64,000 nt of DNA from Paenibacillus sp. OK003 (lineage in GTDB: Bacteria > Bacillota > Bacilli > Paenibacillales > Paenibacillaceae), in NCBI RefSeq assembly GCF_900109515.1, contig NZ_FOBD01000007.1:248001-312000 (forward strand). The letters are read 5' to 3'. A model generated the notes under the pieces. That model saw only the letters and a program-made list of their open reading frames with translations. It ran no database searches and was not told where the DNA came from. The position numbers and the translations under genes were made by a program. Positions 9,069-31,392 of this stretch are shown one piece after another (position 1 is the first letter of the stretch; each line of letters opens with the position of its first letter).

Positions 9069-9110
9069 GTGAAGTTCAATTTATTCGAATCGTTCTGATT
9101 AACCTTAGAG

Positions 9111-9148
9111 GCTCAATCTAAACATCAATAACGGATTTTAGATTGAGC
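9111..9148. terminator. Perfect 12-bp inverted repeat between convergent genes
   Basis: GCTCAATCTAAA (9111-9122) is mirrored by TTTAGATTGAGC (9137-9148). No clean T-run follows on either side. It lies between the convergent eamA and tetR genes and probably ends both transcripts. Confidence 0.55.
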
Positions 9149-12539: not shown

Positions 12540-12594
12540 CTGTGTTGTTTCTCTCCTTTTTTTATCTGTATCTATACCTGACTGAATCTACATC

Positions 12595-12776
12595 AGTTCA
12601 ACTAAACGTTTTACACAAGAACGGAGAGGACAGAAAAAACCTGAAGAAGCGGAGCGTTCGCCTTTATCACCGGATTTTCCCTTTGAAGAAGGGAATCAAA
12701 AAAATCTGGGGATAACAGCGATCGGAAGGTTATTCTGTCATCGGAGTGGCAGGTGTAAACTTTCTTGGGTTGAACT
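12595..12776 (+). repeat. Dispersed repeat, copy 1 (MITE-like, terminal inverted repeats)
   Basis: A 182-bp element. It begins AGTTCAAC (12595) and ends with the mirrored GTTGAACT (12769-12776), with secondary mirrored TTTTACAC/GTGTAAA inside. It holds the 30-base core shared exactly with the copies at 18.05 and 31.2 kb (here 12699-12728) and an internal hairpin built on CCGGATTTT and AAAATCTGG. It occupies nearly the whole gap between lplJ and the HAD gene. Confidence 0.8.
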
Positions 12777-12783
12777 TATATAC

Positions 12784-13785
12784 CTACTCCTCAAGGAAAA
12801 TAAGGCCAATAAAGTCCTCCAGCTCCAGGTTACCGAAGTAATGTTTTACATCCAGACCCTTAAGTGCAGTACGCACCTCAGATTCCTCGTAACGCTTGCC
12901 ACGCAGCATATCTTCGATATCCGCCACATCGCCTACGCCGAAGAAATCACCAAAGATTTTGATATCTTCAATGCGTCCATCTTTGATATTCATGCGCAGA
13001 TCGATGATGCCAACAGGGAATTTACGTGTATGCTTCACATTGCTTTCCGGGGAAAGCCCGTAGTTCCAGTCCCAATTGTTATAACGCTCGGCAGAGATTT
13101 CGTTGATCTTGTCCCAGTCTTTCTCTGTGAGTTCATATTGAGGGACGTCTTGTGGCTCCATGCGGAAAATATGACGGAGCAGCTCGTCCCGGAATTGTTC
13201 AATGGTCAGCTTGCTGTCGATCAGATCACGAATATTCGCAACACGACTGCGCACGGATTTGGTGCTCTTGGACTTGAACTTCTCCGGATTAACGTTGAGT
13301 GAAGCCTGGACGTGGTCGAGGTTCAGGTTAAACATCAATGTGCCGTGACTGAACATACGGCCACGTGTAGAGAATTGGGCATTGCCCGAAATTTTCTTCT
13401 CTCCGACTTGCAGATCGTTACGTCCCGTCAGTTCGGCATTAACGCCAAGCTCCTGCAGGGCTTCCACCACAGGCTGCGTGAATTTACGGAAGTTATGGAA
13501 GGATTGTCCGTCATCCTTGGTAATAAAGCTGAAATTGAGGTTGCCCAGATCGTGATAAACGGCTCCGCCTCCCGAAAGACGACGTACGACTTGAACACCG
13601 TTATCCTGAACATACTCAATATTGATCTCTTCAATAGTATTCTGGTGTTTTCCGATAATAATGGACGGGCGGTTGATGTAAAACAGCAAATAACTGTCAT
13701 CCATCGGCAGATGCTTCAGAATGTATTCCTCAATGGCGAGGTTTACAGAAGGATCTGTAATGCCCTGGTTATCAACAAACAGCAT
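12784..13785 (-). CDS. lplJ: Lipoate--protein ligase LplJ
   Basis: A 333-residue enzyme that activates free lipoate with ATP and attaches it to lipoyl domains of dehydrogenase complexes or GcvH. It is very similar as remembered to Bacillus LplJ: MLFVDNQ start, SIIIGKHQNTIEEIN, the RRLSGGGAVYHD lipoate-binding loop, and GRNDLQV and KISGNAQFS segments. ATG 13785 is preferred over 13791 because GGAGGA is then 6-7 nt upstream and the N-terminus fits the family. The C-terminal accessory domain is present. It stands alone; the cobamide genes start divergently 200 bp away. Confidence 0.93.
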   Translation of the reverse strand: MLFVDNQGITDPSVNLAIEEYILKHLPMDDSYLLFYINRPSIIIGKHQNTIEEINIEYVQDNGVQVVRRLSGGGAVYHDLGNLNFSFITKDDGQSFHNFRKFTQPVVEALQELGVNAELTGRNDLQVGEKKISGNAQFSTRGRMFSHGTLMFNLNLDHVQASLNVNPEKFKSKSTKSVRSRVANIRDLIDSKLTIEQFRDELLRHIFRMEPQDVPQYELTEKDWDKINEISAERYNNWDWNYGLSPESNVKHTRKFPVGIIDLRMNIKDGRIEDIKIFGDFFGVGDVADIEDMLRGKRYEESEVRTALKGLDVKHYFGNLELEDFIGLIFLEE

Positions 13786-13984
13786 GGTCATTCCTCCATT
13801 AATGTATGTGAGGGATGCATATCCCTTATATAGTGATGCTTTACGGAATCGAAATTCCTACTCTATTGTAAACGAATTGTCGAAAGGACACAAAGGAATT
13901 GAAGCCGCAAAGGGCATGAATAGCCAAAACAGGATTGACCCCTGCCTGCCACGACATCCATAATAAAAAGGACATGCAGAAAGG

Positions 13985-15145
13985 ATGACGGACAGGATGA
14001 CCGGTTTAATTGAAGTTTTCGGACATGGCGGTGATGTGGAGACAGCCGCGGCACGTTTTGGAGGGAATCCTGCGGATTTCCTCGATTTTAGCGCAAATAT
14101 TAATCCTCTGGGTCCACCTCATGAAGTGTTGGAGGCTCTGGAGCAAGGTTTACATACGGTACTTCGTTACCCTGATCCGGGGCATCGTGCGTTCAAAATG
14201 TTGCTTAGTGACCGGCTGGAATTAACCCCGGATCACATATCTGTTGGCAATGGGGCGGCGGAAAGCATGGCTCTAATCTTACTTGGACTCGCGCCGCGTA
14301 GAGTAGGTACAGTAGAGCCCGGTTTTTCAGAGTACAGTGCATTATCCAGACAATTTGGAGCAGAAGTCCACCATGTTCAAGGACGAGAAGAGCTGGACTG
14401 GCGAGCAGAACCGGAAGATATTGAGAAGCTGATGGAGCGGGTGGACCTGCTTTTCCTTGGACAGCCCAACAACCCCAATGGGGTACAGTATCCGGTGGAC
14501 GTTCTGCAACAGCTTGCTCATAAAGCAGAGACAACAGGTACAATATTGGTTGTTGATGAGGCATTTATCGATTTTATTCCTGAATCACAGCGGCAATCGC
14601 TTGCACCCAGCTTGAAAGAGTATCCTCAAGTGATCATCATTCGTTCGATGACCAAGTTTTATGCGATTCCAGGCCTGCGTCTGGGTTATGCGATGGGGCG
14701 TCCTGAACTGATTCGTGCCATGACAGAGAAACAGGTCACCTGGAGTGTGAACGGGCTTGCACTGATCGCAGGAGAAGCCTGTCTGCGCAGTGGGGATAAT
14801 TTTGAACAGGAGACATTAGCACTGGTGTCACACGAGCGGGAGAGATTAACGGAAGGCCTGAAGGCTTTGGGATGTAAGGTGACGCGAGGGGAAGCGAACT
14901 TTATACTGGCAGCTCTGCCAGAGCCGTGGACAGCGACGTCCATCCAGGCTGCCCTCGGTGAACGCGGTATACTGATCCGAAGCTGCGCAATGTATCCCGG
15001 ACTTGGGGAACGACATGTACGTTTTGCGGTCAAGGACGCGGAGGCTAACGGACGTTTGCTGGAAACGATAGGAAATGTAATTACGTCTAATCCGACAACC
15101 GGATTAGAGGCAGGGGGACAAAGCGATGGCACTGCCATTCTATAA
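13985..15145 (+). CDS. cobD: L-threonine-phosphate decarboxylase CobD
   Basis: A PLP enzyme making (R)-1-amino-2-propanol phosphate, the linker of the cobamide nucleotide loop, from threonine phosphate. Fold-type I features: the N-terminal DFSANINPLGPP characteristic of CobD, FLGQPNNPNG, VVDEAFIDF, and the PLP lysine in RSMTKFYAIPGLRLGY. The 386 residues include about 20 extra at the C-terminus where the frame overlaps cbiZ by 20 bp. ATG 13985 is close behind AAAGG; ATG 13997 is an alternative. It heads the cobD-cbiZ-cbiB-cobC cluster. No B12 box is seen upstream, unlike the btu operon. Confidence 0.92.
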   Translation: MTDRMTGLIEVFGHGGDVETAAARFGGNPADFLDFSANINPLGPPHEVLEALEQGLHTVLRYPDPGHRAFKMLLSDRLELTPDHISVGNGAAESMALILLGLAPRRVGTVEPGFSEYSALSRQFGAEVHHVQGREELDWRAEPEDIEKLMERVDLLFLGQPNNPNGVQYPVDVLQQLAHKAETTGTILVVDEAFIDFIPESQRQSLAPSLKEYPQVIIIRSMTKFYAIPGLRLGYAMGRPELIRAMTEKQVTWSVNGLALIAGEACLRSGDNFEQETLALVSHERERLTEGLKALGCKVTRGEANFILAALPEPWTATSIQAALGERGILIRSCAMYPGLGERHVRFAVKDAEANGRLLETIGNVITSNPTTGLEAGGQSDGTAIL

Positions 15146-15953
15146 TTATTACTCCCATTTACAAAAGGACCAAAAGGACCAGAACGAATACAGATCTTCT
15201 GTGTGGCCTGGATTACACGTCTCCGCACATGAGCGGCATATTAAAGCGTCCAGTCCTTCTGCTGTAACAGCCCTTTCCAGTGCCGTGTATGGGGGCGGCA
15301 TGATTGAAATTGATCGCATATTCAACATCTATGTGGACAGACATTATCGCTGTGACGATCCCCCACGTGATATTGCTGATCTGTTGAGTGAATGGCAGGA
15401 GCAGCAGGATCAATGTGCCGGTCTTCTGACTGCGGTTCGATTGGAGCACACAGCGATCCAGGAATACGAAAGTGATGAGTTCGGATTACTTTGCTGCACT
15501 ACAGCAGGGGTATCCAATGCTGCACGGGCGGGTTCTGCAAGAACCGTGTTTGATGCTGCGGGGAATGAGATGAGCAATGGGACGGTGTCCCAGAAAATTG
15601 GGAAGGTTTCGGCTTCAACCTATACTCCCGGTACGATCAATATCATGTTGTGGATGAATGGGCGTATGACTGCTGGAGCGATGGTGAATGCCATTCAGAC
15701 TGCGGTAGAGGCGAAGGCCGCTGCGTTAGCTGATTTCGGTGTGGCCGATTCAGAGAATGGTCTAACCGCAACCGGAACAACAACGGATGCCATCGTACTC
15801 GCGGTAAGTCAGGCTGAAGTAAATAAACCGCTCATCAGTTACGCCGGGACGGCTACGGTCATGGGTGCAGCGATCGGCAGGCTGGTGTATGACACGATAA
15901 CGGAAAGCCTGCAAGCCGCGCAGGAGTGGAAAGAGAGGAATAACAAGCAATGA
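15126..15953 (+). CDS. cbiZ: Adenosylcobinamide amidohydrolase CbiZ
   Basis: A 275-residue hydrolase that removes the aminopropanol side chain from adenosylcobinamide, giving adenosylcobyric acid for re-assembly by CbiB. It is recognised by GGGMIEIDRIFN near the N-terminus, TAGVSNAARAG in the middle, and the C-terminal TGTTTDAIVLA motif. It overlaps cobD by 20 bp and cbiB by 4 bp. Its neighbours fit perfectly: CobD makes the new side chain and CbiB attaches it. CbiZ is uncommon outside archaea and some bacteria and here coexists with CobU, giving two salvage routes. Confidence 0.9.
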   Translation: MALPFYNYYSHLQKDQKDQNEYRSSVWPGLHVSAHERHIKASSPSAVTALSSAVYGGGMIEIDRIFNIYVDRHYRCDDPPRDIADLLSEWQEQQDQCAGLLTAVRLEHTAIQEYESDEFGLLCCTTAGVSNAARAGSARTVFDAAGNEMSNGTVSQKIGKVSASTYTPGTINIMLWMNGRMTAGAMVNAIQTAVEAKAAALADFGVADSENGLTATGTTTDAIVLAVSQAEVNKPLISYAGTATVMGAAIGRLVYDTITESLQAAQEWKERNNKQ

Positions 15954-16978
15954 CATCTCTGCTGATTCAATGGGCTTCTTGGCCGATCTGGACGGGAATG
16001 GCTGGAGCCTGGATTATTGTAGGAGCATACATATTGGATCGCTGCATCGGAGATCCACGCTGGATTCCTCATCCGGTGATTGGCATGGGAAAGGCCATCT
16101 CTGCACTGGAGCGGGCGATAAGATCGCGGGTGGATTCGAACCAGGCTCTCCAAAGAGCTGGCGTTTTATTTCCACTTTTGATTGCAGGCGGTTCTTTTGC
16201 ACTGACTTGGGGATTAATCTATGTGCTGGGTCTTATACATCCCGTTGTTGCGGTTGTGGCAGAAGTGGTGTTAATCGCAACCACCATTGCCTCGAAAGGT
16301 TTGAAGGATGCAGGTATGGAAGTTTACCGCCATCTGAGTCAACAAGATTGGCCTGCGGCGAGACGTTCACTGGGTATGATTGTAGGACGTGATACGGCTC
16401 ATCTGGATGAAAAGGAGATTGTGCGAGGAACGGTAGAGACTGTGGCGGAGAATATCGTGGATGCTATCGTCTCTCCACTGTTCTATGCCCTGATTGGTGG
16501 TGCACCACTTGCCATGGCCTATCGGGCGGTAAATACACTGGATTCCATGGTGGGTTATAAAAATGAAAAATATCTTCATCTCGGCTGGGCATCAGCCCGT
16601 CTGGATGATTGGGCCAACTGGATTCCCGCGCGGCTGACCGCCTTGCTGTTGATTATAGGAGCCTGGTTCATGAAGATGGATGCCAGAGGGGCAGCACGCA
16701 TGGTGTCCCGGGATGCACGACTGCACCCAAGCCCGAATAGCGGTTTTCCCGAGTCGGCGGTGGCCGGAGCGCTGGGCATAAGACTTGGCGGACATAACGT
16801 ATATCACGGCGTGGCTTCATTTCGCGCATATATGGGCGAGCCGTCAAGACGGATGGAAGCAGAAGATATCGTACGAACAACACGGCTTATGTTCTGGTCG
16901 GCAGGTTCTTTTGTTTTAGTATGTTGGTGGGTCACCTTAGGGATATGGTCTGCTGGAGGTGCACTGTTATGGAGATAG
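15950..16978 (+). CDS. cbiB: Adenosylcobinamide-phosphate synthase CbiB
   Basis: A 342-residue polytopic membrane enzyme joining aminopropanol phosphate to adenosylcobyric acid. Family segments seen: LDRCIGDPRWIPHPVIGMGK near residue 30, VGRDTAHLDEKEIVRGTVET, DAIVSPLFYALIGG and NTLDSMVGYKNEKY. Four to five hydrophobic stretches are present. The start overlaps the cbiZ stop (ATGA), and the end overlaps cobC by 10 bp, so translation is coupled. It lies downstream of both CobD and CbiZ in the pathway order. Confidence 0.93.
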   Translation: MTSLLIQWASWPIWTGMAGAWIIVGAYILDRCIGDPRWIPHPVIGMGKAISALERAIRSRVDSNQALQRAGVLFPLLIAGGSFALTWGLIYVLGLIHPVVAVVAEVVLIATTIASKGLKDAGMEVYRHLSQQDWPAARRSLGMIVGRDTAHLDEKEIVRGTVETVAENIVDAIVSPLFYALIGGAPLAMAYRAVNTLDSMVGYKNEKYLHLGWASARLDDWANWIPARLTALLLIIGAWFMKMDARGAARMVSRDARLHPSPNSGFPESAVAGALGIRLGGHNVYHGVASFRAYMGEPSRRMEAEDIVRTTRLMFWSAGSFVLVCWWVTLGIWSAGGALLWR

Positions 16979-17616
16979 AAGCTGGACATGGTGGCATGCA
17001 AAGCCGCGAGATTATTTTGATACGTCATGGTACAACGGCGTGGAACTTGGAAAAAAGGTATCTTGGACATACTGACATCGGACTGTTGCCTGAAGCAAAG
17101 CAGGAGCTATCTTCGCTGCGTGAGCAGTTTAGCAATATCACATGCGAAGCCCTGTATTGCAGTGATCTGCTGCGTTGTCAGCAGACACTCACATACATTG
17201 CATCGTCCCAAATGGGACAGGCCAAGCTTGATGCCCGACTAAGGGAGATCGACTTTGGTGAGTGGGAGGGGTTGACCTATGATCAGCTCAAGGACAATCC
17301 ACAGTACCGAGACTGGATCGATGCGCCGCAGGAGGTAACGCCACCAAATGGCGAGCCTTGGAAAGCATTTGCAGAGCGTATTGATTCATTTATGGAAGAG
17401 AGTCTGATGTCCTTTTTACCAATACTTCACTCTCCCAGCATAAACGTGCCAAAGGTAGCGGTGATTACGCATGGCGGTGTTATTCGTTATATTGTGTCAC
17501 GTCTCATTCCGAATCAAGATTTCTGGGATACGCAGGTGGTACCAGGACAAGCGATAAAGATCCGGCTGGCTGGCGATGGGGATAGCTGGGTTGGAACCCG
17601 ATTGACTTTTCCGTAG
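16969..17616 (+). CDS. cobC: Alpha-ribazole phosphatase CobC (histidine phosphatase family)
   Basis: A 215-residue histidine-phosphatase-superfamily protein, predicted to dephosphorylate alpha-ribazole phosphate or cobalamin phosphate at the end of loop assembly. The catalytic motif is ILIRHGTTAWN, with the second histidine in ITHGGVIR. ATG 16969, 9 nt behind GGAGG, is the start; it overlaps the cbiB end by 10 bp. The histidine phosphatase family is broad, so the specific function rests on genome context, which is strong: last gene of cobD-cbiZ-cbiB-cobC. Confidence 0.85.
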   Translation: MEIEAGHGGMQSREIILIRHGTTAWNLEKRYLGHTDIGLLPEAKQELSSLREQFSNITCEALYCSDLLRCQQTLTYIASSQMGQAKLDARLREIDFGEWEGLTYDQLKDNPQYRDWIDAPQEVTPPNGEPWKAFAERIDSFMEESLMSFLPILHSPSINVPKVAVITHGGVIRYIVSRLIPNQDFWDTQVVPGQAIKIRLAGDGDSWVGTRLTFP

Positions 17617-17622
17617 ATCGGG

Positions 17623-17651
17623 TTGTAAGGATGTACAATATAACCTATAAT
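17623..17651 (+). promoter_or_regulatory. Promoter of the btu/cob leader
   Basis: TTGTAA (17623-17628), 17-bp spacer, TATAAT (17646-17651), 100-250 bp before the B12 riboswitch core. Predicted to start the long btuF leader. Confidence 0.7.
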
Positions 17652-17759
17652 CACAACAGAAGTGTGACTTAGCAAGTGCATCATCGGATGGAGGTTCAAC
17701 AAGCCCTGCCAACGATGCAGGATGCTCACTTGAATGGTTAAACAATATTAGCGACCAAG

Positions 17760-17935
17760 GGTCCCGCGTGCATGCAGTAATGTTTCATGCTTTTATATGA
17801 GGCGATGAACGGCAAACGGGTGAAATAGGGAAGCCGGTGTAAATCCGGCACGGTCCCGCCACTGTAAATCAGGATGAATTCCTGTAAGTCAGGTTACCTG
17901 CCCTGGACGTATAAACCGGTGTTCCTTCGAGGAAA
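17760..17935 (+). promoter_or_regulatory. Cobalamin (B12) riboswitch
   Basis: Leader RNA aptamer binding adenosylcobalamin. Consensus pieces are present in order: GGGAAGCCGGTGTAAATCC (from about 17828), GCCACTGTAA around 17858, and the B12 box AAGTCAGGTTACCTGCC at 17886-17902. The 5' boundary is approximate. A terminator (18013-18052) lies downstream as a likely expression platform, so high B12 would switch off the btuF operon. Confidence 0.92.
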
Positions 17936-18012
17936 GGACAGCGTTTCGGGCAGTTCTCTGTGCATTTACAGCGCCAAGCTGACCATGTACAGATCGCCAC
18001 ATGCGAGACGTC

Positions 18013-18052
18013 ATCCCTGATCCTGACCCAAGGATTGGGGATTTTATTTTTT
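18013..18052 (+). terminator. Probable riboswitch-controlled terminator
   Basis: A two-step stem, ATCCC and ATCCT (18013-18024) pairing with AGGAT and GGGAT (18031-18042), then a T-rich tail to 18052. It sits 110 nt after the B12 box and directly before dispersed repeat copy 2. Confidence 0.7.
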
Positions 18053-18053
18053 C

Positions 18054-18246
18054 ATATAAGATGAACCGAATATTACACGAGAACGAAGAGTGCAGAACCA
18101 ATCTGAAGAAACGAAGTGTTCGCCTTTATAACCGGATTTTTCCCTTTTCAAAAAGGGGATCAAAAAAATCTGGGGATAACAGCGATCGGAAGATGGTACT
18201 GCAATCGTAGTGGCCTAGTGTAAAGTTTTATTGGTTCATCTTATAT
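18054..18246 (+). repeat. Dispersed repeat, copy 2, inside the btuF leader
   Basis: A 193-bp element with mirrored ends: ATATAAGATGAACC (18054-18067) and its reverse complement (18233-18246). It carries the shared 30-base core at 18163-18192 and the internal CCGGATTTTT/AAAAATCTGG hairpin. Same orientation as copy 1. It begins two bases after the riboswitch terminator tail and ends 68 bp before btuF. Confidence 0.82.
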
Positions 18247-18313
18247 AGGAACACAAATTCAAGCGGATTTGGGACAGGAGCACTACTCATTAGAATGGAT
18301 AGAGAAGGGGAGA

Positions 18314-19318
18314 ATGAACACAATGAATTTCAAGACATGGAAAGGCGTAGCGTCACTGCTGAGCGCAGCGATGCTGGCACTGACGTTGGCCGGATGTGGT
18401 ACAACAACAACGAACGAGGGTACAGGAACCTCGCAACCTGCACAGGAGCAATCCCAAGGTCAGGCGCAGACAGATCTCAAAACACAATATCCAATTACGG
18501 TTACAGATGCTACGGGAGAATCGTTTACGTTTGACAAAGCACCAGCCAAAATCGTATCCGTATCTCCGGCTGAAACGGAATCCCTGTTCGCACTCGGATT
18601 GGACGAGCAGATCGTAGGGGTATCCGACTATGACGATTATCCGGAAGCAGCAACAAAGAAACCAAAAATGGGCGGCATAACAAAGCCTAATGAAGAGTCG
18701 ATCATTGCAGCTGATGCTGATATCGTATTTACAGGCATTTCAATGAGCAAAGAGTCGGTGAAGAAACTGCGTGATCTGGGCATTACCATTTTCAAAACAG
18801 ATCCTAAATCAGTGGATGATGTGATAAACAACATTGAAACATTTGGTAAAATCACGGATCATCAGGAAAAAGCGCAGGAGATCATCACCCAGATGAAACA
18901 GGATGTGGCTGATGTAACTGAAGCGGTGAAGGCAGTTAAACCGGAAGAGAAGAAAAAAGTATATGTTGAATTCTCCCCAGGCTGGACTGTGGGTAAAGGC
19001 GAATTCATGGATGAATTGATTACACTGGCCGGAGGAAACAACGTAGCTTCCGACTTGACTGGCTGGAACCAGATTAATGAAGAGAACATTATTGCTTCTA
19101 ATCCAGACGTCATTCTGTATGCGAACGATGTCATTGATGAAAATTCCAAAACATTGGATCAAATCATCAAAGCACGCAGCGGATGGGATCAAATCACGGC
19201 TGTGAAAAACGATGCAGTCATTGGCCTGGATGGCAACCTGCTGAGTCGTCCGGGACCACGTGTAACGGAAGGTTTGAAAGCTGTAGCCAAAGCGATCTAC
19301 CCTGATCTGTTCAAATGA
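18314..19318 (+). CDS. btuF: Corrinoid ABC transporter substrate-binding lipoprotein BtuF-like
   Basis: A 334-residue extracellular binding lipoprotein. Its signal peptide ends in lipobox LTLAGC near residue 27, followed by a Thr/Gln/Gly-rich tether and two lobes of the helical-backbone (TroA/BtuF-like) fold: KIVSVSPAETESLFALGL, then VSDYDDYPEAA. Iron-siderophore binding proteins share this fold, but the upstream B12 riboswitch and downstream cob genes point to corrinoids. ATG 18314 follows AAGGGGAG closely; ATG 18323 in frame has better spacing. The stop overlaps the permease start by ATGA. Confidence 0.88.
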   Translation: MNTMNFKTWKGVASLLSAAMLALTLAGCGTTTTNEGTGTSQPAQEQSQGQAQTDLKTQYPITVTDATGESFTFDKAPAKIVSVSPAETESLFALGLDEQIVGVSDYDDYPEAATKKPKMGGITKPNEESIIAADADIVFTGISMSKESVKKLRDLGITIFKTDPKSVDDVINNIETFGKITDHQEKAQEIITQMKQDVADVTEAVKAVKPEEKKKVYVEFSPGWTVGKGEFMDELITLAGGNNVASDLTGWNQINEENIIASNPDVILYANDVIDENSKTLDQIIKARSGWDQITAVKNDAVIGLDGNLLSRPGPRVTEGLKAVAKAIYPDLFK

Positions 19319-20361
19319 GTAAAAAGCTGGTAGTGTACGGAACGGCCGGAATGGTGCTGCTTGTGTTAACCGTGCTCATCTGTACGGGCATCGGTTCGGT
19401 TGCCCTGCCTGTCCGGGACATTGCGGGCATCTTGCTTCATCACATTCCCTGGCTGGGCGACTGGATTGTTCCTGACTGGAATACAGCAGCAGAACAGATT
19501 ATCTGGAAGGTCAGATTCCCACGTGTACTGCTTGCCGTGCTTGTAGGTGCATCACTGGCGATTGCCGGAACTGGATTCCAGGGGGTTCTTCGTAACCCTC
19601 TGGCTGATCCGTTTACCCTGGGCGTATCGTCTGGTGCATCGGTAGGTGCGGCTTTTCTGATTTTTTTCGGATTGCAGTATGCGCTGATTGGGATCTGGAC
19701 TCTGCCACTGGTCGCGTTTCTGACGGGAGTAGTCACATTGTGGTTTGTGCTGGCCCTCGCTCGGGAGGGACGTAAAATACCGACACACAGCCTGATTCTG
19801 GCTGGCGTGGTCATGCAAAGTTTCCTGGGAGCCGTAGTCTCCTTCCTGTCGACCATGTCGAAGCAGACCATCAATGAAATTATATACTGGACGATGGGAA
19901 GTCTAGCACTGCGTGGGTGGTCGTATACGGCCATCCTTTTCCCGTATTTTGTGCTGGGACTGATTTTTCTCTGGAGCCGTGCGCGTTCGTTGAATGTACT
20001 TGCCCTGGGGGAGCGACAGGCTGCTCATATCGGGGTTAAGGTGGATGGATTGAAGCTGTCGGTGTTAGCTGTGGGTACACTGCTTACGGCAGGCGCTGTC
20101 TCCGTATCCGGTGTGATTGGCTTCGTCGGGTTGGTCATTCCGCATATTCTTCGGCTCATCGTCGGACCTGATTATCGATTGCTGGTGCCTTTGTCCGCGA
20201 TTGGGGGAGCCATCTTCATGGTCTGGGCAGATACGATTGCACGCTCATTGCTGGCCCCAACCGAAATTCCGCTGGGTGTGGTTACAGCTTTTGTTGGAGC
20301 GCCATTCTTCGCGTATCTGCTGCACCGGAACAAAAAGCTGCGGAAGGGGATGATGCCATGA
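19315..20361 (+). CDS. btuC: Corrinoid ABC transporter permease BtuC-like (FecCD family)
   Basis: A 348-residue polytopic protein of the FecCD/BtuC family with about nine or ten membrane helices. Seen: the first helix from residue 5, the conserved VRFPRVLLAVLVGASLAIAG, LADPFTLGVSSGASVGAA, and the C-terminal GFVGLVIPHILR segment that contacts the ATPase. It is coupled to btuF and btuD by 4-bp overlaps on both sides. Specificity for corrinoids comes from the riboswitch and operon context. Confidence 0.9.
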   Translation: MSKKLVVYGTAGMVLLVLTVLICTGIGSVALPVRDIAGILLHHIPWLGDWIVPDWNTAAEQIIWKVRFPRVLLAVLVGASLAIAGTGFQGVLRNPLADPFTLGVSSGASVGAAFLIFFGLQYALIGIWTLPLVAFLTGVVTLWFVLALAREGRKIPTHSLILAGVVMQSFLGAVVSFLSTMSKQTINEIIYWTMGSLALRGWSYTAILFPYFVLGLIFLWSRARSLNVLALGERQAAHIGVKVDGLKLSVLAVGTLLTAGAVSVSGVIGFVGLVIPHILRLIVGPDYRLLVPLSAIGGAIFMVWADTIARSLLAPTEIPLGVVTAFVGAPFFAYLLHRNKKLRKGMMP

Positions 20362-21179: not shown

Positions 21180-21226
21180 ATGAAGCGGGGGATACCCTAT
21201 ATTTTAATAAAGGAAGTGCTGGCTGT

Positions 21227-23801: not shown

Positions 23802-23825
23802 CGCGGAGAGTGGTGGTGAGGGAAC

Positions 23826-25415
23826 GTGGAAGATACTTCTGCACAAACGTCTGAACAAACGGCGGCAGTATTAATGCTGCAAGGGACAGCATCGGATGTG
23901 GGGAAAAGCGTAATTACGACGGCCTTATGCCGAATATTCAAGCAGGATGGCTTCAGGCCAGCTCCGTTCAAATCACAGAACATGGCGCTGAATTCTTACG
24001 TCACAGAAGACGGAAAGGAAATCGGAAGAGCGCAGGGAGCGCAAGCCGAGGCATGCGGCATTGAAGCGACGACAGATATGAACCCGATCCTGATCAAGCC
24101 GGTTCGGGATATGCATTCCCAGATTGTCGTGCACGGTGTGCCTCTTACACAGATGAGTGCATGGGACTACCGGCAGCATTTCCTGCCCCAAGCCAAACAA
24201 ACGGTCATGGATGCACTGAATCGGTTGCGCGCGACATATGATATTGTGCTGATGGAAGGTGCAGGCAGTCCTGCTGAGATCAATCTGAAGGATCGGGATA
24301 TCGTTAACATGAATTTGGCGGGCTGGGCGGATGCTCCGGTAATTCTGATTTCGGATATTGATCGTGGTGGTGTCTTTGCCTCCATTGTAGGTACATTGGA
24401 GCTGCTTGAGCCGCATGAGGTTCGGCGTGTAAAAGGATTCATCATCAACAAGTTTCGTGGAGACCTGTCCTTGCTGCAGCCTGGGTTGGACTGGCTTGAA
24501 GAACGGACAGGCATACCTGTATTGGGCGTATTGCCTTACGTAAGTGATATTCAGATTGAAGCGGAAGACTCCGTGGTGCTGGACTCGATGCGACATGGCA
24601 AATCCGGTCAGCAGGAGCTGGACCTTGCGGTAATTCGTTATCCGCGTATTTCCAACTTTACAGACTTTGATGCCCTTTCCAGGGAACCGGATGTGAATGT
24701 GCGATACGTGACTTCTCCCGCTGAACTGGGGCATCCCGATGCCATTCTGCTTCCGGGTACGAAGGATACGATTGGGGATCTGGCATTTCTGCGTGCGTCG
24801 GGACTCGAGCAAGCGATTGCCAGCCAGACGGAGCGTGAAAATGTTCAGCTTGTCGGGATATGTGGTGGATACCAGATGCTCGGTCAGCATCTCAAAGATC
24901 CATTTGCGGTAGAAGCGAATCAGATCCAGGAAGCCTATGGATTGGGATGGCTGCCCCTATCGACAACATTCCTACAGAACAAACAAACGGTGAGAGCCTC
25001 TGGGCATGTACACAGTCATCATCCAATTCGTTTGCCCAAGGAAAGCGATGCAGCAAGCTCGTTGCCCATCCATGGATACGAGATTCATATGGGTGTTACC
25101 GAGTGTATTGAGCCTGAACGTTTAACGGCCTTATTCGAAATCGCCCATCCGGGAGGTCAATCCTTCAATGAAGGCTGGGGCACGACTGACGGCAAAGTGT
25201 GGGGAACATACCTGCATGGTTTGTTTGAAAGTGATCCATTCCGGCGCTCATGGCTTAATGGTCTGCGTGAAGGAAAAGGACTTGCTCCGTTGCTGGAGAC
25301 GTACAGCGCACGTGAACGTAAGGAAATGGAGTTCGATCGTGTAGCTGAATCATTACGTTCTTCCTTGGATATGCAGCGTGTGTACGAGATTATGGGCGTT
25401 CAGGCACCTGAATAA
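23826..25415 (+). CDS. cobQ: Cobyric acid synthase CobQ/CbiP
   Basis: A 529-residue glutamine-dependent amidotransferase that amidates the b, d, e and g side chains of the corrin ring. The N-terminal ATP-binding dethiobiotin-synthetase-like domain shows LQGTASDVGKSVITTAL. The C-terminal class I glutaminase-like domain has nucleophile Cys in VGICGGYQMLG and His in TYLHGLFES. The start is GTG 23826 behind GAGGGA. As cobyrinic acid diamide is its substrate, its presence hints that corrin-ring genes exist elsewhere or that incomplete corrinoids are imported. It is the last gene of the btu/cob operon, followed by a strong terminator. Confidence 0.93.
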   Translation: MEDTSAQTSEQTAAVLMLQGTASDVGKSVITTALCRIFKQDGFRPAPFKSQNMALNSYVTEDGKEIGRAQGAQAEACGIEATTDMNPILIKPVRDMHSQIVVHGVPLTQMSAWDYRQHFLPQAKQTVMDALNRLRATYDIVLMEGAGSPAEINLKDRDIVNMNLAGWADAPVILISDIDRGGVFASIVGTLELLEPHEVRRVKGFIINKFRGDLSLLQPGLDWLEERTGIPVLGVLPYVSDIQIEAEDSVVLDSMRHGKSGQQELDLAVIRYPRISNFTDFDALSREPDVNVRYVTSPAELGHPDAILLPGTKDTIGDLAFLRASGLEQAIASQTERENVQLVGICGGYQMLGQHLKDPFAVEANQIQEAYGLGWLPLSTTFLQNKQTVRASGHVHSHHPIRLPKESDAASSLPIHGYEIHMGVTECIEPERLTALFEIAHPGGQSFNEGWGTTDGKVWGTYLHGLFESDPFRRSWLNGLREGKGLAPLLETYSARERKEMEFDRVAESLRSSLDMQRVYEIMGVQAPE

Positions 25416-25446
25416 AAAAACTGCATCTGGTGTGCAGTCCAAAAGA

Positions 25447-25508
25447 ATACCCCCATGCGTGGCAACGTTCCCTTGAACCTGGAACGAGGCTGAGCATGGG
25501 GGTATTTG
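25447..25508. terminator. Bidirectional terminator between cobQ and the chemoreceptor gene
   Basis: ATACCCCCATGC (25447-25458) mirrors GCATGGGGGTAT (25494-25505), with an inner GTTCC/GGAAC stem. T-rich on the plus side and A-rich upstream, so it can end both convergent transcripts. Confidence 0.82.
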
Positions 25509-25564
25509 TGTACCCAATGTTAAGTTTGATTCGAAAATGGAAATAATGGGTTAAAGTATTCCGG

Positions 25565-27265
25565 TTAGTTTATTTTGAAGTTCTTCATGGCGGATTGCAG
25601 TTCTACCGCTTGCTCATGCAGATGACGTACGGTGTTGGAATGGGAGTCCATCTCATTCAGTTGGAGATCCGCTGTAGAAGCAATCTCTTGCATGCTTTGA
25701 CGGGACTTAGATGTAATTTGAGCCGTTTCTTCCACGGAAGCACTGACTTCTTCAGCTCCAGCAGATACTTGCTGTGTTGAGGCCGATACCGTCTGAATGG
25801 TTAGATTGACGTTCTGAATCAATTCGTTAAGCTGCTGGAACGCAGAGCCTGCCTGTTGAACTACATGAGTACCTGATCCAATCTCTTGGGTTACACGGTT
25901 CATGGCATCAACCGAACGTTCGGCATCTTCACGGATAGTACCCAGGTAATCGGAGATTTCCTCTGTAGCTGTCTTGGATTGCTCTGCCAGTTTGCGTACT
26001 TCTCCGGCAACAACGGCGAACCCACGTCCATGTTCTCCCGCACGTGCTGCTTCAATGGAAGCGTTGAGGGACAGCATGTTAATCTGTTTCGTGATTTCAA
26101 AAATGGATTGAACGATGGTCCCTATCGCGATCGAGCGCTCGTTCATCGTTTCGACATAACGCAGAGATTCGCTCGCGGTCTGGCCGACACGTTCCATTTG
26201 CTCAATGGCGTCCTGAGCCAGACGGTTACCCTTAACAGCTTCGTTCGCAGCATCTCCGATCTGCTCGGATACTTCGGCAGAAGAGGAGGCAATATGCATA
26301 ATGCCCTGTGTGATTTCTTCCATGGCTCTTGCATTTTCGGCTGCGCTGGAAGCGATACTTACGCTGCCTTTCTCTGCACTTTCTGCAGAACGACTGGAGT
26401 TTTTCACCATACCGGACATGGATTCTACCCGTTTGAGCAAATCATTGGAGCCTTCTACAACTTCATTGGACGTGGAAAGGGCGCGGCTAATCATTTCTTT
26501 CAAATTATGAGTCATCGTCTGGAAGCTTGAAGCCAGCTGTGCAATCTCATCCTTACCTTTAATCTGAAGTTCAGCCGTCAGATCTCCTTGTGATATCTGT
26601 TTGCTATGTTGAACGAGCTTGATGATCGGTTTGGTTACACGTTTGATCATGCTTGTCGATATGAGCCATCCTAGCACAATGACCAATGCGGTGATACCGA
26701 GGCACAACCAGAAGATCTGTGCAATTTTGTCCTGAATGAATTGGGCATCCATGCTAACAGCCATGATCATGTTACTTCCTGCGATCGGTATAAAGGCTGC
26801 TTTATGTACACCGAAGGAATCGGCATAAACCTGGCTGATTTCCATTTCTTTTTTTTCAGTGGCCGCACTCATTGCTGCTTCTACTTTAATCTCATCTCCG
26901 GCTTTCATGCCCGAGGAGGTATTTGCGATGACAACGGTAGCTTTACCATCCTGAATGGCCACGACGTAGGCTCCGTCCAGATTATGCTCTTTGGCTTTGC
27001 CAGCCAAATAGGATTCCACGGTGAGTGCAGCACCTTCAGAGCCAGCCCCGCCACTCTGTACTTGCAAAATTTTAGAAGCGGATGTGTTCTTGTATATATC
27101 CTGAATGGACGTGCTCAGGACCTTGTCGAACTGTGGAAGCACGTAGCTCTGCATAATATTCATGGAGACAGCATAGAAACTGATACTAAACAACAGGGAA
27201 GCAACCAGCAGTACGAGGAACAAAGTGCCTCTGATTTTACCGGCAACGGTGCGATTTCGAAACAT
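25565..27265 (-). CDS. Methyl-accepting chemotaxis protein
   Basis: A 566-residue transmembrane chemoreceptor. Membrane segment one is about residues 13-34; an extracellular sensor of roughly 145 residues (probably Cache-like) follows; membrane segment two is about 182-205 ([18 protein letters not shown]); then HAMP and a long helical signalling domain. The conserved signalling tip is [20 protein letters not shown] with [10 protein letters not shown]-like continuation. The start follows AAAGGATG. It is a lone gene, convergent to cobQ and divergent from tcyP. The ligand is unknown; the neighbouring cystine transporter is suggestive but not evidence. Confidence 0.93.
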
Positions 27266-27548
27266 AGAATCATCCTTTCACGTCAAGTTCATTAACATTA
27301 TCGCTTTTCCGTTATCGTAAGACTAAATACCAACGAAGAAAGGCCTAATTTTCACGTTGAGAAAACTTGGGAATAAGCGGATATACCTATATTACAAAAT
27401 TAACCGGAGGTTGAATACAATAATTTTCACGATTCAGTGTATTTTTTTCAGAAATAGATGAATTTGTTACACGCATATTACATAATATCAATTAATACCT
27501 ACCAGAATAGTTTGATATATGATATATTGTTGATTATCGCTTTTGAGC

Positions 27549-27577
27549 GAGTAGAAAACCGGGATATCCGGTTACTC
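27549..27577 (+). promoter_or_regulatory. Palindromic element just before tcyP
   Basis: AACCGG (27557-27562) and CCGGTT (27568-27573), with flanking GAGTA (27549-27553) and TACTC (27573-27577), can form a hairpin ending about 8 nt before the GAGGAGG ribosome site. It could be an operator or a leader hairpin affecting tcyP. In the rest of the 334-bp divergent gap (27266-27599) I see AT-rich sequence and no confident riboswitch. Confidence 0.4.
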
Positions 27578-27599
27578 ACACTGAGGAGGATTTATACAA

Positions 27600-28997
27600 A
27601 TGAATACCTTTTTAATCATTTTAAACGTCGTGGTCATGCTCGCTCTTCTGGGTGTCCTGTTCTGGATGCAGAAGAAACATGTTTCGTTTACCAAGCGTGT
27701 GTTTGCGGGTTTGGGCATTGGGGTCGTATACGGCGTCATTCTGCAATTGATCTACACATCTGATTCTGACATCATTACCAAGTCGGTCGATTGGTTTAAT
27801 CTGGCCGGTTCAGGATATGTTCGTTTGTTACAAATGGTCGTAATTCCATTGATTATGGTTTCTATCATTTCGGCCATCATGAATCTGAAAGGCAAGCAGA
27901 ATCTCGGTAAAATGAGCCTTTCGATTATCGCAATCCTGCTCATCACGACGGCAATTGCCGCAAGCGTGAGTATTGTGACGAGCTTGAGCTTCAACCTGAC
28001 GTCCATTGAGATCGAAGGTGGAGACCGAGAGCTTGCACAGGGGCAGAAGATGGAAGAACGTCTCGTTGACGTGAAGGATCAGACGATTCCACAGCAAGTA
28101 CTGGAGTTCATTCCGTCGAATCCATTCGCGGATATGACCGGAGAACGTCGTACCTCCACACTGGCTGTTGTTATTTTCTCGGCCTTTATCGGTGTGGCAG
28201 TGCTCGGATTGGATCGCAAAAAACCACAGCAGGCGGAAACGTTCCGCGGCATGGTCGATGCGGTATATGCGGTGGTTATGCGGATTGTAACGCTGGTGCT
28301 CAGGCTGACGCCTTACGGGATTTTGGCGCTGATTACGAAGGTAACCGCCACAACGAACCCGGATGAGATTCTGAAGCTGATCAAATTCGTCATTGCTTCC
28401 TACGTGGCGTTGATCGTCATGTTCATCATCCACCTGATTATTATTTCACTGTTTGGCTTCAATCCAATTACGTATGTGAAAAAGGTTCTCCCAACGCTGA
28501 TCTTTGCTTTCACATCCCGTTCAAGTGCGGCAGCGATTCCGCTTAACGTGGAGACACAAACGAAGAGATTGGGTGTTTCGGACGGGATTGCGAACCTGTC
28601 GGCAAGCTTTGGTGCTACGATTGGTCAAAACGGCTGTGCCGGGATCTATCCGGCCATGCTGGCGGTCATGATTGCTCCTACGGTCGGGATCGACCCGATG
28701 AGCTGGGACTTCATCATTACTCTGATCCTGGTAGTCGTGATCAGTTCATTCGGCGTAGCCGGTGTAGGCGGCGGGGCAACCTTCGCTTCCCTGATCGTGT
28801 TGTCCACGATGAACCTGCCGGTAGCTTTGGCAGGCTTGCTGATCTCGGTTGAACCGCTCATCGACATGGGCCGTACAGCGCTGAACGTGAACGATTCGAT
28901 GACCGCAGGTCTCGTATCCAGCAAAATTTTGAAAGAAAACGATCAGGATACATTCAATGATCAAAGCCGTGATCTGGATTCCGCCCTTCAGGCGTAA
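27600..28997 (+). CDS. tcyP: L-cystine:cation symporter TcyP
   Basis: A 465-residue secondary transporter of the dicarboxylate/amino acid:cation symporter family, closely resembling TcyP, the sodium-coupled cystine importer. Seen: N-terminus MNTFLIILNVVVMLALLGVL, KHVSFTKRVFAGLGIG, the serine-rich re-entrant loop TSRSSAAAIPLN, the NGCAGIYPAML segment, and GVAGVGGGATFAS. About eight membrane helices are expected. The start lies 7 nt after GAGGAGGA. It is a single gene with its own terminator, divergent from a chemoreceptor gene. Control by the cysteine regulator CymR is likely by analogy, but I could not place a convincing site. Confidence 0.9.
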   Translation: MNTFLIILNVVVMLALLGVLFWMQKKHVSFTKRVFAGLGIGVVYGVILQLIYTSDSDIITKSVDWFNLAGSGYVRLLQMVVIPLIMVSIISAIMNLKGKQNLGKMSLSIIAILLITTAIAASVSIVTSLSFNLTSIEIEGGDRELAQGQKMEERLVDVKDQTIPQQVLEFIPSNPFADMTGERRTSTLAVVIFSAFIGVAVLGLDRKKPQQAETFRGMVDAVYAVVMRIVTLVLRLTPYGILALITKVTATTNPDEILKLIKFVIASYVALIVMFIIHLIIISLFGFNPITYVKKVLPTLIFAFTSRSSAAAIPLNVETQTKRLGVSDGIANLSASFGATIGQNGCAGIYPAMLAVMIAPTVGIDPMSWDFIITLILVVVISSFGVAGVGGGATFASLIVLSTMNLPVALAGLLISVEPLIDMGRTALNVNDSMTAGLVSSKILKENDQDTFNDQSRDLDSALQA

Positions 28998-29047
28998 TTC
29001 AGATTCATAATAGGCGGATGGCAGTTACAGCCACAAGCCATGCAAGA

Positions 29048-29085
29048 GCAGCCGTTCTTCGGGTTAATCCGGAGGGCGGCTTTTT
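29048..29085 (+). terminator. Terminator after tcyP
   Basis: AGCCG (29050-29054) pairs with CGGCT (29077-29081), extended by inner TTCGG/CCGGA pairing, then five T. Confidence 0.7.
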
Positions 29086-29202
29086 GCTTTTAGCATCCGC
29101 TCGGCATACCGTAAATATCACTTGAAGCCAGCTGGAGTTATTTAGTGCTGTTCAACTTTGGGGAAATGTGATAGAGTATTCATGTTTTGGCCCAGAGCCA
29201 AA

Positions 29203-29243
29203 CCGCGGTTCGTAACCATCCCGCGTAATCAAAACTAGGAAGG
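29203..29243 (+). promoter_or_regulatory. PreQ1-I riboswitch
   Basis: A compact preQ1 class I aptamer: P1 stem CGCGG (29204-29208) with CCGCG (29221-29225), the loop beginning TTCGTAACC, then the A-rich tail AATCAAAACTAGGAAGG (29227-29243), which contains the ribosome site. Ligand binding would tie up the AGGAAGG and block translation of the downstream queuosine-precursor transporter. The match of ligand and gene supports the call strongly. Confidence 0.85.
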
Positions 29244-29256
29244 CAGTGTATTTATA

Positions 29257-29940
29257 TTGTTTAATTTAGGATGGGGAGCGCTTTTCGTTCTCGTAACGTA
29301 TGGCTTTTTTCTTTTGTGTTACCGCTTGTTCGGTAAAAAGGGTCTTTATGCCTGGATTGGTGTGGCAACAGTCATTGCCAATATACAGGTGACCAAAACG
29401 ATAGATATTATGGGGATCGTTCTAACGCTGGGCAATACGATGTATGTCAGCATGTACCTGACCAGTGATCTGCTCAACGAGAAGTATGGACCAGCTGAGG
29501 CACGTAAAGCCGTATGGTTCGGGTTCTTCACATTGATCATGACGACAGTGCTGATGCAGATGGTATTGTTCTTTGAACCGGCTTCGACGGACTTTGCACA
29601 GGATTCGATGAAAACCCTGTTTGGTCTGCTGCCACGTCTGGCACTCGGAAGTCTGACAGCTTATTTCATCAGTCAGTTCCTGGACGTGCGACTGTACACT
29701 TGGCTGCGCAAGGTGGCACCAGGGCGCAATCAGTTGTGGATACGTACCAACGGCAGCTCGATCATCAGTTCGTTTGCGGATACGCTGGTATTCTGCACGA
29801 TTGCGTTTGCCTTCATCTATCCATGGGACGTCTGGCTTGAAATTTTCTTGACGACGTATGTGATCAAATTTGTATTGACTGCGGTAGGAACGCCGTTTCT
29901 ATATGCTGCACGAAGCTTTAAATTCAAGGACGAAGCCTAG
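29257..29940 (+). CDS. Queuosine precursor transporter (YhhQ/VUT family)
   Basis: A 227-residue polytopic membrane protein of the DUF165/YhhQ family, importing preQ0/preQ1 for tRNA queuosine. Characteristic segments: VTKTIDIMGIVLTLGNTMY, SDLLNEKYGPAEARKAVWFG and SIISSFADTLVFC. Start is assigned to TTG 29257, 13 nt after AGGAAGG; no ATG or GTG lies in a better place in this frame. The preQ1-I riboswitch just upstream both supports the function and explains regulation. It is monocistronic, with a bidirectional terminator behind it. Confidence 0.9.
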   Translation: MFNLGWGALFVLVTYGFFLLCYRLFGKKGLYAWIGVATVIANIQVTKTIDIMGIVLTLGNTMYVSMYLTSDLLNEKYGPAEARKAVWFGFFTLIMTTVLMQMVLFFEPASTDFAQDSMKTLFGLLPRLALGSLTAYFISQFLDVRLYTWLRKVAPGRNQLWIRTNGSSIISSFADTLVFCTIAFAFIYPWDVWLEIFLTTYVIKFVLTAVGTPFLYAARSFKFKDEA

Positions 29941-29980
29941 ATTCGTAGTTCATTCGTCCGAAAATGTTGAATTCAAACAC

Positions 29981-30024
29981 AAAAGTCCCGCAAAGCCATG
30001 CATTCATGGTTACGCGGGACTTTT
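29981..30024. terminator. Bidirectional terminator
   Basis: AAAAGTCCCGC (29981-29991) mirrors GCGGGACTTTT (30014-30024), with inner CCATG/CATGG pairing. Serves the convergent transporter and peptidase genes. Confidence 0.88.
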
Positions 30025-30042
30025 GGTTATGGCCAAAAAGGA

Positions 30043-31131
30043 TTAGTCCGTCAGAATTTGCAGCTCTTTCGGATAGGACGTCAGCACCTCAACACCAGTT
30101 TCTGTCACAAGTACATCATCCTCGATACGCACACCGCCTGCGCCGGTATAGATGCCCGGTTCGATCGTAAATACTGTACCTTCCTCGAGAATGTCCATGT
30201 TCTGACCATGCAATGAAGGATATTCATGCACGTCAATGCCCATGCCATGTCCAACTCTGTGCAGGAAACGTTCGCCGTATCCGGCTTCTTCCGTAACCTG
30301 GCGTGCTGCACGGTCAATATCCGCACAGGTCACGCCTGGCTTAACTGCACGAATGGCAGCTTCGTTTGCTGCGAGCACGGTGTTATAGATGGTTTTAAGT
30401 TCAGGTGAAATGTCACCAAAGGCAAATGTGCGCGTAATATCTGATGCATACCCACCAGCATAGACACCCATATCAAACATCAACAGATCGCCATGCTGCA
30501 ATTTGCGTTCACCCGGTGTGCCGTGTGGCAAGCCTGTTTTGGGCCCAGTGAGCACCATTGTATCAAAGGAAGGGCTGTCTGCACCCAGTTTCTTCATCTG
30601 GTATTCCATTTCGGCAACCAGTTCGATTTCGGTTACGCCCGTACGAACGTGGGACAATCCTTGGCGAAGCGTCTCCTCGATCAGATGAATGGCATGGCGA
30701 ATGCGAGCGACTTCATCCGGTGTTTTTTTCACACGCAAGGTGCGAAGCAGAGGACCGACATCTTCAAAGTTGACAGCACCAAGGGCGGTGGTCAACTGTT
30801 CATAACGTGCAACAGTCACGTATTCTTTTTCGAGACCTACACGGCCCAGGCGTCCTTGATAACGCTCAAATAAGGCGTACGGATTGTCCGTATCGGAATG
30901 CGTGGCAATGTTCGAGACCGAAGAAGCGGCTGCTGCAGCTTCCTCGTCAAGTGCAGGCACGATCAACAGCGGATCTTCGCCGCGTGCAAGAACAAGCCCA
31001 AGGAAACGTTCATGCGGATTACTCGCAAAACCTGTTAAATAGTAAATATGCTTCGGATCTGTAATCAGCATGGCGTCCAATCCTTGTGTAGACAGACCCG
31101 CTTCCAGCCGGGATAAAGGAGTTTGATTCAT
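30043..31131 (-). CDS. M24-family Xaa-Pro peptidase (aminopeptidase P-like)
   Basis: A 362-residue cytoplasmic metallopeptidase predicted to cleave Xaa-Pro bonds. The N-terminal creatinase-like domain (LITDPKHIYYLTGFASNPHER) is followed by the pita-bread catalytic domain with metal ligands in MFDMGVYAGGYASDITRTF, the His in HRVGHGMGIDVHE, the Glu in FTIEPGIY and the Glu of RIEDDVLV. All five ligands appear present. The start follows AAAGGTGG. Upstream lies dispersed repeat copy 3. No operon partner. Confidence 0.9.
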   Translation of the reverse strand: MNQTPLSRLEAGLSTQGLDAMLITDPKHIYYLTGFASNPHERFLGLVLARGEDPLLIVPALDEEAAAAASSVSNIATHSDTDNPYALFERYQGRLGRVGLEKEYVTVARYEQLTTALGAVNFEDVGPLLRTLRVKKTPDEVARIRHAIHLIEETLRQGLSHVRTGVTEIELVAEMEYQMKKLGADSPSFDTMVLTGPKTGLPHGTPGERKLQHGDLLMFDMGVYAGGYASDITRTFAFGDISPELKTIYNTVLAANEAAIRAVKPGVTCADIDRAARQVTEEAGYGERFLHRVGHGMGIDVHEYPSLHGQNMDILEEGTVFTIEPGIYTGAGGVRIEDDVLVTETGVEVLTSYPKELQILTD

Positions 31132-31160
31132 TAGTTATATGTCCACCTTTCAGTTCGTTC

Positions 31161-31392
31161 TATATAAATTGAACTAAATAATATTTACACTTGCCACTCC
31201 GATGACAGAACAACCTTCCGATCGCTGTTATCCCCAGATTTTTTGGATTATCTTTTTCAAGGGGTAAAATCCGGGGATAGCGTATGCTTCCGATGCAGCT
31301 TTCTTTCAGAAAGCTTTTAGGCGAACACTTCGTTTCTTCAGGTTATTTCTGTCCTCTACGTTCTCGTGTAAATATTTAGTTCAATTTATATA
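31161..31392 (-). repeat. Dispersed repeat, copy 3 (inverted orientation, longest)
   Basis: A 232-bp element with perfect 20-bp terminal inverted repeats: TATATAAATTGAACTAAATA (31161-31180) mirrored at 31373-31392. The shared 30-base core lies at 31215-31244 in reverse orientation. It has about 40 extra internal bases compared with copies 1 and 2, including a small AAAGCTTTCTGAAAGAAAGC-type hairpin. It lies just upstream of the M24 peptidase gene. In the rest of the gap to 31627 I see only short CTTACT repeats (31530-31562). Confidence 0.85.

Follow-up and report, generated by a model that had tools for sequence, protein, structure and literature searches.

The window analysed here is a 64,000-nucleotide stretch of the Paenibacillus sp. 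OK003 genome (contig NZ_FOBD01000007.1, positions 248,001 to 312,000). It contains three copies, c1, c2 and c3, of a short non-coding element that recurs throughout the genome. A preliminary description had placed three copies here, and direct reading bears this out, with boundaries slightly refined from a comparison with empty sites and from the profile of the ends:

c1, short form: 12591..12780, plus strand, 190 bp, with TA at 12589-12590 and 12781-12782.
c2, short form: 18055..18245, plus strand, 191 bp, flanked by CA and TA.
c3, long form: 31163..31390, minus strand, 228 bp, with TA at 31161-31162 and 31391-31392.

The three copies can be aligned end to end except for a 38-base internal module that is confined to c3, where it forms an insertion at the small P2 hairpin and carries the AGCTTTCTGAAAGAAAGCT hairpin inside it. 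The 30-base segment reported as common to the copies is letter-identical in all three (12699-12728, 18163-18192 and 31244-31215), and the central CCGGATTTT/AAAATCTGG hairpin and the mirrored TTTACAC/GTGTAAA motifs described with it are likewise present. The middle of the element, about 107 positions long, is predicted to be a structured RNA core and is matched by a core model, R1, whose E-values are rough because its calibration was short:

30-base core segment AAAAAATCTGGGGATAACAGCGATCGGAAG in c1: 12699..12728, plus strand, by direct sequence reading.
30-base core segment AAAAAATCTGGGGATAACAGCGATCGGAAG in c2: 18163..18192, plus strand, by direct sequence reading.
30-base core segment AAAAAATCTGGGGATAACAGCGATCGGAAG in c3: 31215..31244, minus strand, by direct sequence reading.
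Predicted structured RNA core of c1: 12632..12737, plus strand, model R1, 108.4 bits, E 8.6e-26.
Predicted structured RNA core of c2: 18094..18201, plus strand, model R1, 102.5 bits, E 2.9e-24, a score for kin of the training set (the c2 sequence, as L031, is among the 38 training rows).
Predicted structured RNA core of c3: 31206..31350, minus strand, model R1, 64.3 bits, E 2.6e-14.

These are the sole independent R1 matches in the window; three extra rows of the scan are weak opposite-strand matches within the same copies. When folding is compared with dinucleotide shuffles, the z-scores are -4.6 for c1, -8.2 for c2 and -8.7 for c3, and none of 200 shuffles equals any copy.

The surroundings of the copies differ. 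c1 lies between genes for a HAD-family hydrolase (11736-12539, minus strand) and a lipoate-protein ligase (12784-13791, minus strand) and is antisense to both. c2 is in sense orientation, with the terminator of a cobalamin riboswitch on one side and a periplasmic-binding-protein gene (18269-19318, plus strand) on the other. The riboswitch spans 17783-17919 and is followed by a terminator hairpin and T run at 18013-18042, and c2 begins directly after the T run. c3, also sense, precedes an M24 metallopeptidase gene (30043-31131, minus strand). No intrinsic terminator, sought as a GC stem followed by a T run, was found inside c1, c2 or c3. The minus strand of the c1 interior contains one promoter-like match, where shuffles lead one to expect 0.4.

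Sequence comparison suggests that the element is probably a non-autonomous DNA transposon, that is, a miniature inverted-repeat transposable element (MITE), whose IS630-family ends enclose a structured RNA domain. The preliminary description had offered a MITE or a structured RNA as alternatives; both would apply, by region, the MITE reading holding for the ends only and the RNA reading for the middle. In the proposed mechanism, an IS630-type transposase would act on the ends and spread the element into TA sites, and the middle would be selected as RNA, two steps supported by comparison. The RNA would be read within mRNA leaders and intercistronic regions, as its position suggests, and may then serve in cis as a signal for processing or stability, by which the transcript is cut or protected at that point. 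A sense copy would accordingly be tolerated or useful, and an antisense copy removed.

In G000, the 6.72-Mb assembly to which the window belongs, the element is abundant: a 14-base core pattern has 89 matches and its reversed control has none, so that the repeat is not a product of chance. Profile searches of stretches fetched from G000 yield 115 non-overlapping matches, fragments and pieces of single copies included, of which 99 belong to type A (window-like) and 16 to type B, which has the same core and a different closing helix. This list is a lower bound, as the similarity searches scored 40 of 152 and 40 of 144 candidates. The preliminary description would have been undermined by a genome holding just the three copies, a situation far from the 99 A-type matches seen here. 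A scan of named genomes returned at least 109 stretches, and 80 of the 80 among the matches listed are titled Paenibacillus. Within the genus, an 18-base pattern occurs in 62 of 75 genomes, with at least 20 matches in 47 of them and a maximum of 137. Like a MITE, the elements are short, non-coding, dispersed and multi-copy.

The profile C-TA/TATAARTTGAACTA describes both ends of the element across 62 full-length copies, and T and A are the most frequent bases at both flank positions on either side. Terminal repeats that differ between copies and pair within each copy had been noted for the window, and the pattern proves to be genome-wide. Over the first 14 positions the mean within-copy arm match is 9.73, against 8.55 (sd 0.17) with right arms shuffled among copies, and none of 2000 shuffles is as high. 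Outside the element's borders no clear matching is seen: over 12 flank positions, the TA among them, 228 of 2000 shuffles score as high.

A transposase with matching ends, which the preliminary description had proposed looking for, was found in related genomes. The DDE domain PF13358 occurs in 21 of the 75 genomes of the genus, and five of the 30 PF13358 loci examined (L317, L322, L337, L338 and L339) are bounded on both sides by a TATAARTTGAACTA-like end with 0-2 mismatches in 14 positions, the match being exact at both ends in L338. All five have CTA on both flanks, measure 1162-1167 bp and come from four genomes, G040 (twice), G061, G008 and G017; the shared terminal inverted repeats are thus found on transposase-bearing IS630 elements of other genomes in the genus, not of G000. 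The loose end pattern also matches elsewhere by chance, and reliance is therefore placed on end pairing, spacing and the CTA flanks. One open-reading-frame piece each from L338 and L317 was tested against NF033545 (IS630 family transposase, NCBIfam) and scored 141.2 and 95.8 bits, respectively, where the cut-off is 100. These elements resemble the window copies in their ends and CTA flanks and differ in being about 1.16 kb long, with transposase reading frames and without the RNA core. Neither the A nor the B repeat profile matches any of the five loci at E 1e-3, which indicates that the insertion sequence does not include the RNA core. In all five, the transposase lies in two reading-frame pieces, as a programmed frameshift or decay would produce.

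IS630 transposase elements with these ends suggest that a plausible mobilising enzyme is present in the genus. The IS630-type repeats, the mostly TA flanks, the empty sites described below and the like-ended transposase elements support the view that the ends behave as transposon ends, and IS630-type mobility of the element is, on these comparisons, very probable.

Filled and empty sites, another comparison that the preliminary description had proposed, were examined by comparing the G000 contig with about 400 kb of syntenic sequence from each of G015, G058 and G002. The c3 site is empty in the two close relatives G015 and G058 and fits insertion at a TA target (CGTTC-TA-TCTT), TA having become TA-element-TA; c2 and several other sites do not fit that model. 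At the c2 site, G000 and the distant G002 are filled, with like arms, and the two closer genomes, G015 and G058, are exactly empty. Such a pattern could reflect either an old insertion precisely lost in one lineage or two insertions. The c1 site was aligned in the 30 of 75 searched genomes that gave loci, G000 included. The element or a remnant is present in 26, and G001, G002, G040 and G049 lack it and retain an arm-like stretch, suggesting that the site has been repeatedly or variably occupied.

The alignment of the c1 site (L170-L199) also includes genomes in which the element has the opposite orientation and other arms, and in its left flank a six-base segment is inverted in place between L171 and L187 (ACCCGA / TCGGGT). 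Three insertions (G000:C29:130053, G015:283029 and G058:307953) lie in the loops of short inverted repeats, each of which is unbroken in the relative that lacks the insertion. Insertion into hairpin loops was considered as a general rule and rejected, as flank pairing over the 62 copies is not above that of shuffles.

The strand carrying ACAGCGATCGNAAG would be the RNA strand. In the proposed fold of its core, the closing stem P1 is long and variable; the further parts are an internal loop (3x3, GNA/GNA), a hairpin of 2 bp whose loop reads GNA or GNNA, a helix UCGC/GCGA and P3, a long hairpin. The fold was evaluated on alignment A2, which comprises 38 diverse cores at most 82% identical, drawn from 40 chosen stretches after L099 and L228, whose ends seemed misplaced, had been dropped. 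In A2, 93.1% of pair cells pair under the proposed structure, and 148 double-changed cells are still paired, against 48.2 (sd 6.4) in shuffled and 18-46 in slid versions, the latter comparison favouring the structure because it was chosen on the same sequences. AACAGCGAT and AGAA are invariant in A2, most of these columns having been fixed by the selecting pattern. Where loci came from the model search instead, variation is seen in the AACAGCGA and GAA columns, and the UCGC/GCGA helix is re-paired as UCGU/ACGA in L436 and as CCGC/GCGG in L420.

Selection on RNA read from one strand should tolerate G.U intermediates and not A.C intermediates. This asymmetry was evaluated in 194 of 286 distinct aligned A-type stretches, retained after length and similarity filters. 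In the inner stem, G.U-type and A.C-type intermediates stand at 66:14 (pairs 13 vs 1, p 0.0018), and in the core at 191:9 (pairs 12 vs 3, p 0.035), a ratio that becomes 46:7 once the single pair that is G.U in 145 of the 194 copies is removed. The TTTACAC helix (27:11; pairs 4 vs 1, not significant), the outer transposon arms (80:54; pairs 9 vs 3, p 0.15) and the apical hairpin (114:107; pairs 2 vs 5) complete the series. The excess in the inner stem and core points to an RNA of the sense strand, and the distribution suggests a signal that is strongest where RNA is expected and less strong in the parts that a transposase would read as DNA. The lower folding energy of the sense strand (57 of 62 copies) was rejected as proof, the copies being related, and was replaced by this pair-wise test. 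Taken with the A2 covariation, RNA-level selection on the sense strand appears highly likely.

The core also occurs apart from the window-like element. Five B-type loci were compared, three of them present in all of G000, G015, G058 and G002 and two in some, and in 10 of 12 comparisons conservation is higher in the core than in the flanks, for instance 141/145 in the core and 203/246 in the flanks at locus 27013, G000 vs G002; in one of the 10 the margin is a hair. In other genera, the core sits inside further, quite different closing or outer helices, and some copies in G211 (L401) have TATATAAGTTGAA-like ends. The core model, limited to 15 scored places in any one genome, has matches at E up to 1e-4 in 197 of 246 genomes from the order, which represent 33 of 46 genera; the training genomes are among them. 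A class-wide draw of 299 genomes, which may or may not have included other families of the order, gave matches in 27, all of them from the same family as the window.

In genus g42 the RNA occupies fixed loci. It lies between the citrate synthase and isocitrate dehydrogenase genes (citZ-icd) in five genomes and precedes leuA in five, with ilvC called upstream in four; other g42 loci were tied to L420 and L436 by comparison. Between orthologous citZ-icd and leuA copies, the P1 and P3 stems have been rewritten on both sides and re-paired, and the core loops are little changed. No other evidence speaks as strongly as this compensation for a role of the fold at places where no movement is seen. It is conceivable, and close to an even call, that the core is a cis-acting RNA class native to the order, kept at citZ-icd and ilvC-leuA in some genera and captured between IS630 ends in Paenibacillus, where it would now serve as a portable post-transcriptional module before dozens of unrelated genes.

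Orientation relative to genes was scored in G000 for 82 of the 99 A-type matches (start in the model no later than 40, end no earlier than 215) together with every one of the 16 B-type matches, using simple open-reading-frame calls; divergent, convergent and one-sided sites were counted and kept outside the sense/antisense ratio. Between co-directional genes, 57 elements are sense and 7 antisense (p 8e-11; type A alone, 51 vs 6), at medians of 36 nt past the upstream stop and 35 nt ahead of the next start codon. At divergent sites, the element is closer to the sense gene in 13 of 18. Further sets give sense:antisense counts of 20:2 and 55:11, and two others, at 7:3 and 4:2, do not reach significance by themselves; some of these sets contain orthologues, and 17 edge cases were set aside. 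With the contig's majority element strand as reference, the element shares the direction of the genes in 44 of 47 cases when they lie on that strand and in 9 of 13 when they lie on the opposite one. Downstream genes are of diverse types with no shared theme, and a gene-specific riboswitch was rejected for lack of such a theme among neighbours.

Several observations weigh against a mobile element with IS630-type ends and an RNA-selected middle. The PF13358/IS630 domain is absent from G000 itself (none of 7 candidates) and occurs in 7 of the 47 high-copy genomes (20 or more core-pattern matches), so that any current mobility by that enzyme is putative. The empty c2 site has an exact junction, TTTTTTC/GGAAC, without TA; the c3 site shows a 3-base difference immediately beside the insertion, and several further filled/empty pairs differ at the junction. 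On the RNA side, AACAGCGA and part of the GAA segment are conserved by construction, having been fixed by the selecting pattern. The G.U counts cover related sequences, for which reason weight is placed on the per-pair sign tests, and the contrast between regions is a raw comparison, in which the arms show a lean in the same direction. B locus 153058 is an exception to the conservation of the core, its flanks being the better conserved in comparisons with G015 and G058. As for orientation, c1 itself is antisense, 5 of 30 loci from sparse genomes are antisense to a co-directional pair (21 are sense, orthologues included), and the sense bias may stem partly from replication direction. The antisense loci of the sparse genomes are L419, L434 and L428, from one distant family, and L427 and L438 (G280); their sites include the front of thiO, the interval between xylB and xylA and the vicinity of dnaJ.

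A purely selfish IS630-derived MITE is an alternative reading. Its fold would be a by-product of long inverted repeats, its arms would be re-matched by template switching or by gene conversion between arms, and its sense bias would come from replication co-orientation or the purging of harmful insertions. Passages of PMC2229807 describe known TA-flanked bacterial MITEs that give highly base-paired transcripts, the outer arms of the present element are without significant G.U bias (9 vs 3, p 0.15), and elements tend to share the contig's strand. Against these points, the G.U excess is greatest in the inner stem and core, the core has quite different outer helices in other genera, and the orthologous citZ-icd and leuA copies evolve by compensation. 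A selfish element of this kind is unlikely.

If the middle does act as RNA, control of processing or stability in cis is tentatively favoured as its mode of action, as a first choice that rests on the position before genes and between cistrons, the lack of a gene theme, the lack of a terminator in c1-c3 and the precedents of ERIC and Correia elements. Placement in sense shortly ahead of many kinds of gene would also suit an RNA that controls transcription, a processive antiterminator or attenuator acting on RNA polymerase in the sense leader of any gene; c2 stands directly behind the cobalamin riboswitch terminator, and the P2/P4 region is paired differently in consensus folds from different alignments. 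The absence of an intrinsic terminator-like site within c1, c2 and c3 and of a shared gene theme weighs against such control, an improbable reading. More doubtful still is a self-cleaving ribozyme or protein-recruiting RNA carried by the transposon. Highly conserved loop nucleotides beside freely varying helices (part of this core having been fixed by the selecting pattern) and dispersal in repeats without a gene theme would be in keeping with one, but the loci searched match no Rfam ribozyme family and no cleavage site can be assigned from the sequence.

Several known systems come close to the element. The RUP element of Streptococcus pneumoniae, 107 bp long with 9-bp repeats, is like the present one, as far as described in passages of PMC2229807, in being small, non-coding, present at about 100 copies per genome, targeted to TA and equipped with terminal repeats in common with an IS630-family insertion sequence (IS630-Spn1). 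The present element, unlike RUP, measures 190-228 bp in the window and has an RNA-selected core that also stands at fixed loci and across the order. Correia/NEMIS elements of Neisseria and ERIC elements of enterobacteria affect mRNA through RNase III or RNase E, and for ERIC orientation matters, according to passages of PMC2229807 and PMC10969869. They too are TA-ended palindromic elements within transcripts, a setting predicted here from position, and going by description they differ from the present element, in which a conserved multi-helix core is common to families with different closing helices.

No named family was recognised in the preliminary description, and this stands for the sequences searched against Rfam 15: the window elements, three stretches with four B-type loci, ten loci (nine A-type) and twenty divergent loci gave no match. 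In the open-access literature, judged by titles and the starts of abstracts, nothing was recognised as this element, and the word 'repeat' is absent from the passages of a Paenibacillus transcriptome paper (PMC5670726). On its transposon side the element adds a new member to the RUP/IS630-Spn1 type. Its RNA side, which resembles Rfam 15 structured RNA families in being covariation-supported, multi-copy and intergenic, would be a new structured RNA family.

If this account is correct, many unrelated genes have received one conserved RNA device in their leaders from a spreading transposon, and RNA-mediated rewiring of expression by mobile elements could be tested directly in bacteria that can be cultivated, where naturally filled and empty alleles provide the controls. 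The meeting of DNA-like ends and an RNA-selected middle in one small element would offer an instructive contrast. Leader sequences, that of the window's cobalamin-riboswitch gene among them, would be easier to interpret with the core known, and the core would be a new structured RNA family for annotation across an order. The same RNA perhaps has a divergent branch in L200, where three tandem G+C-rich repeats about 297 bp apart (8723-8821, 9020-9117 and 9316-9414) match the model weakly, at 27-30 bits.

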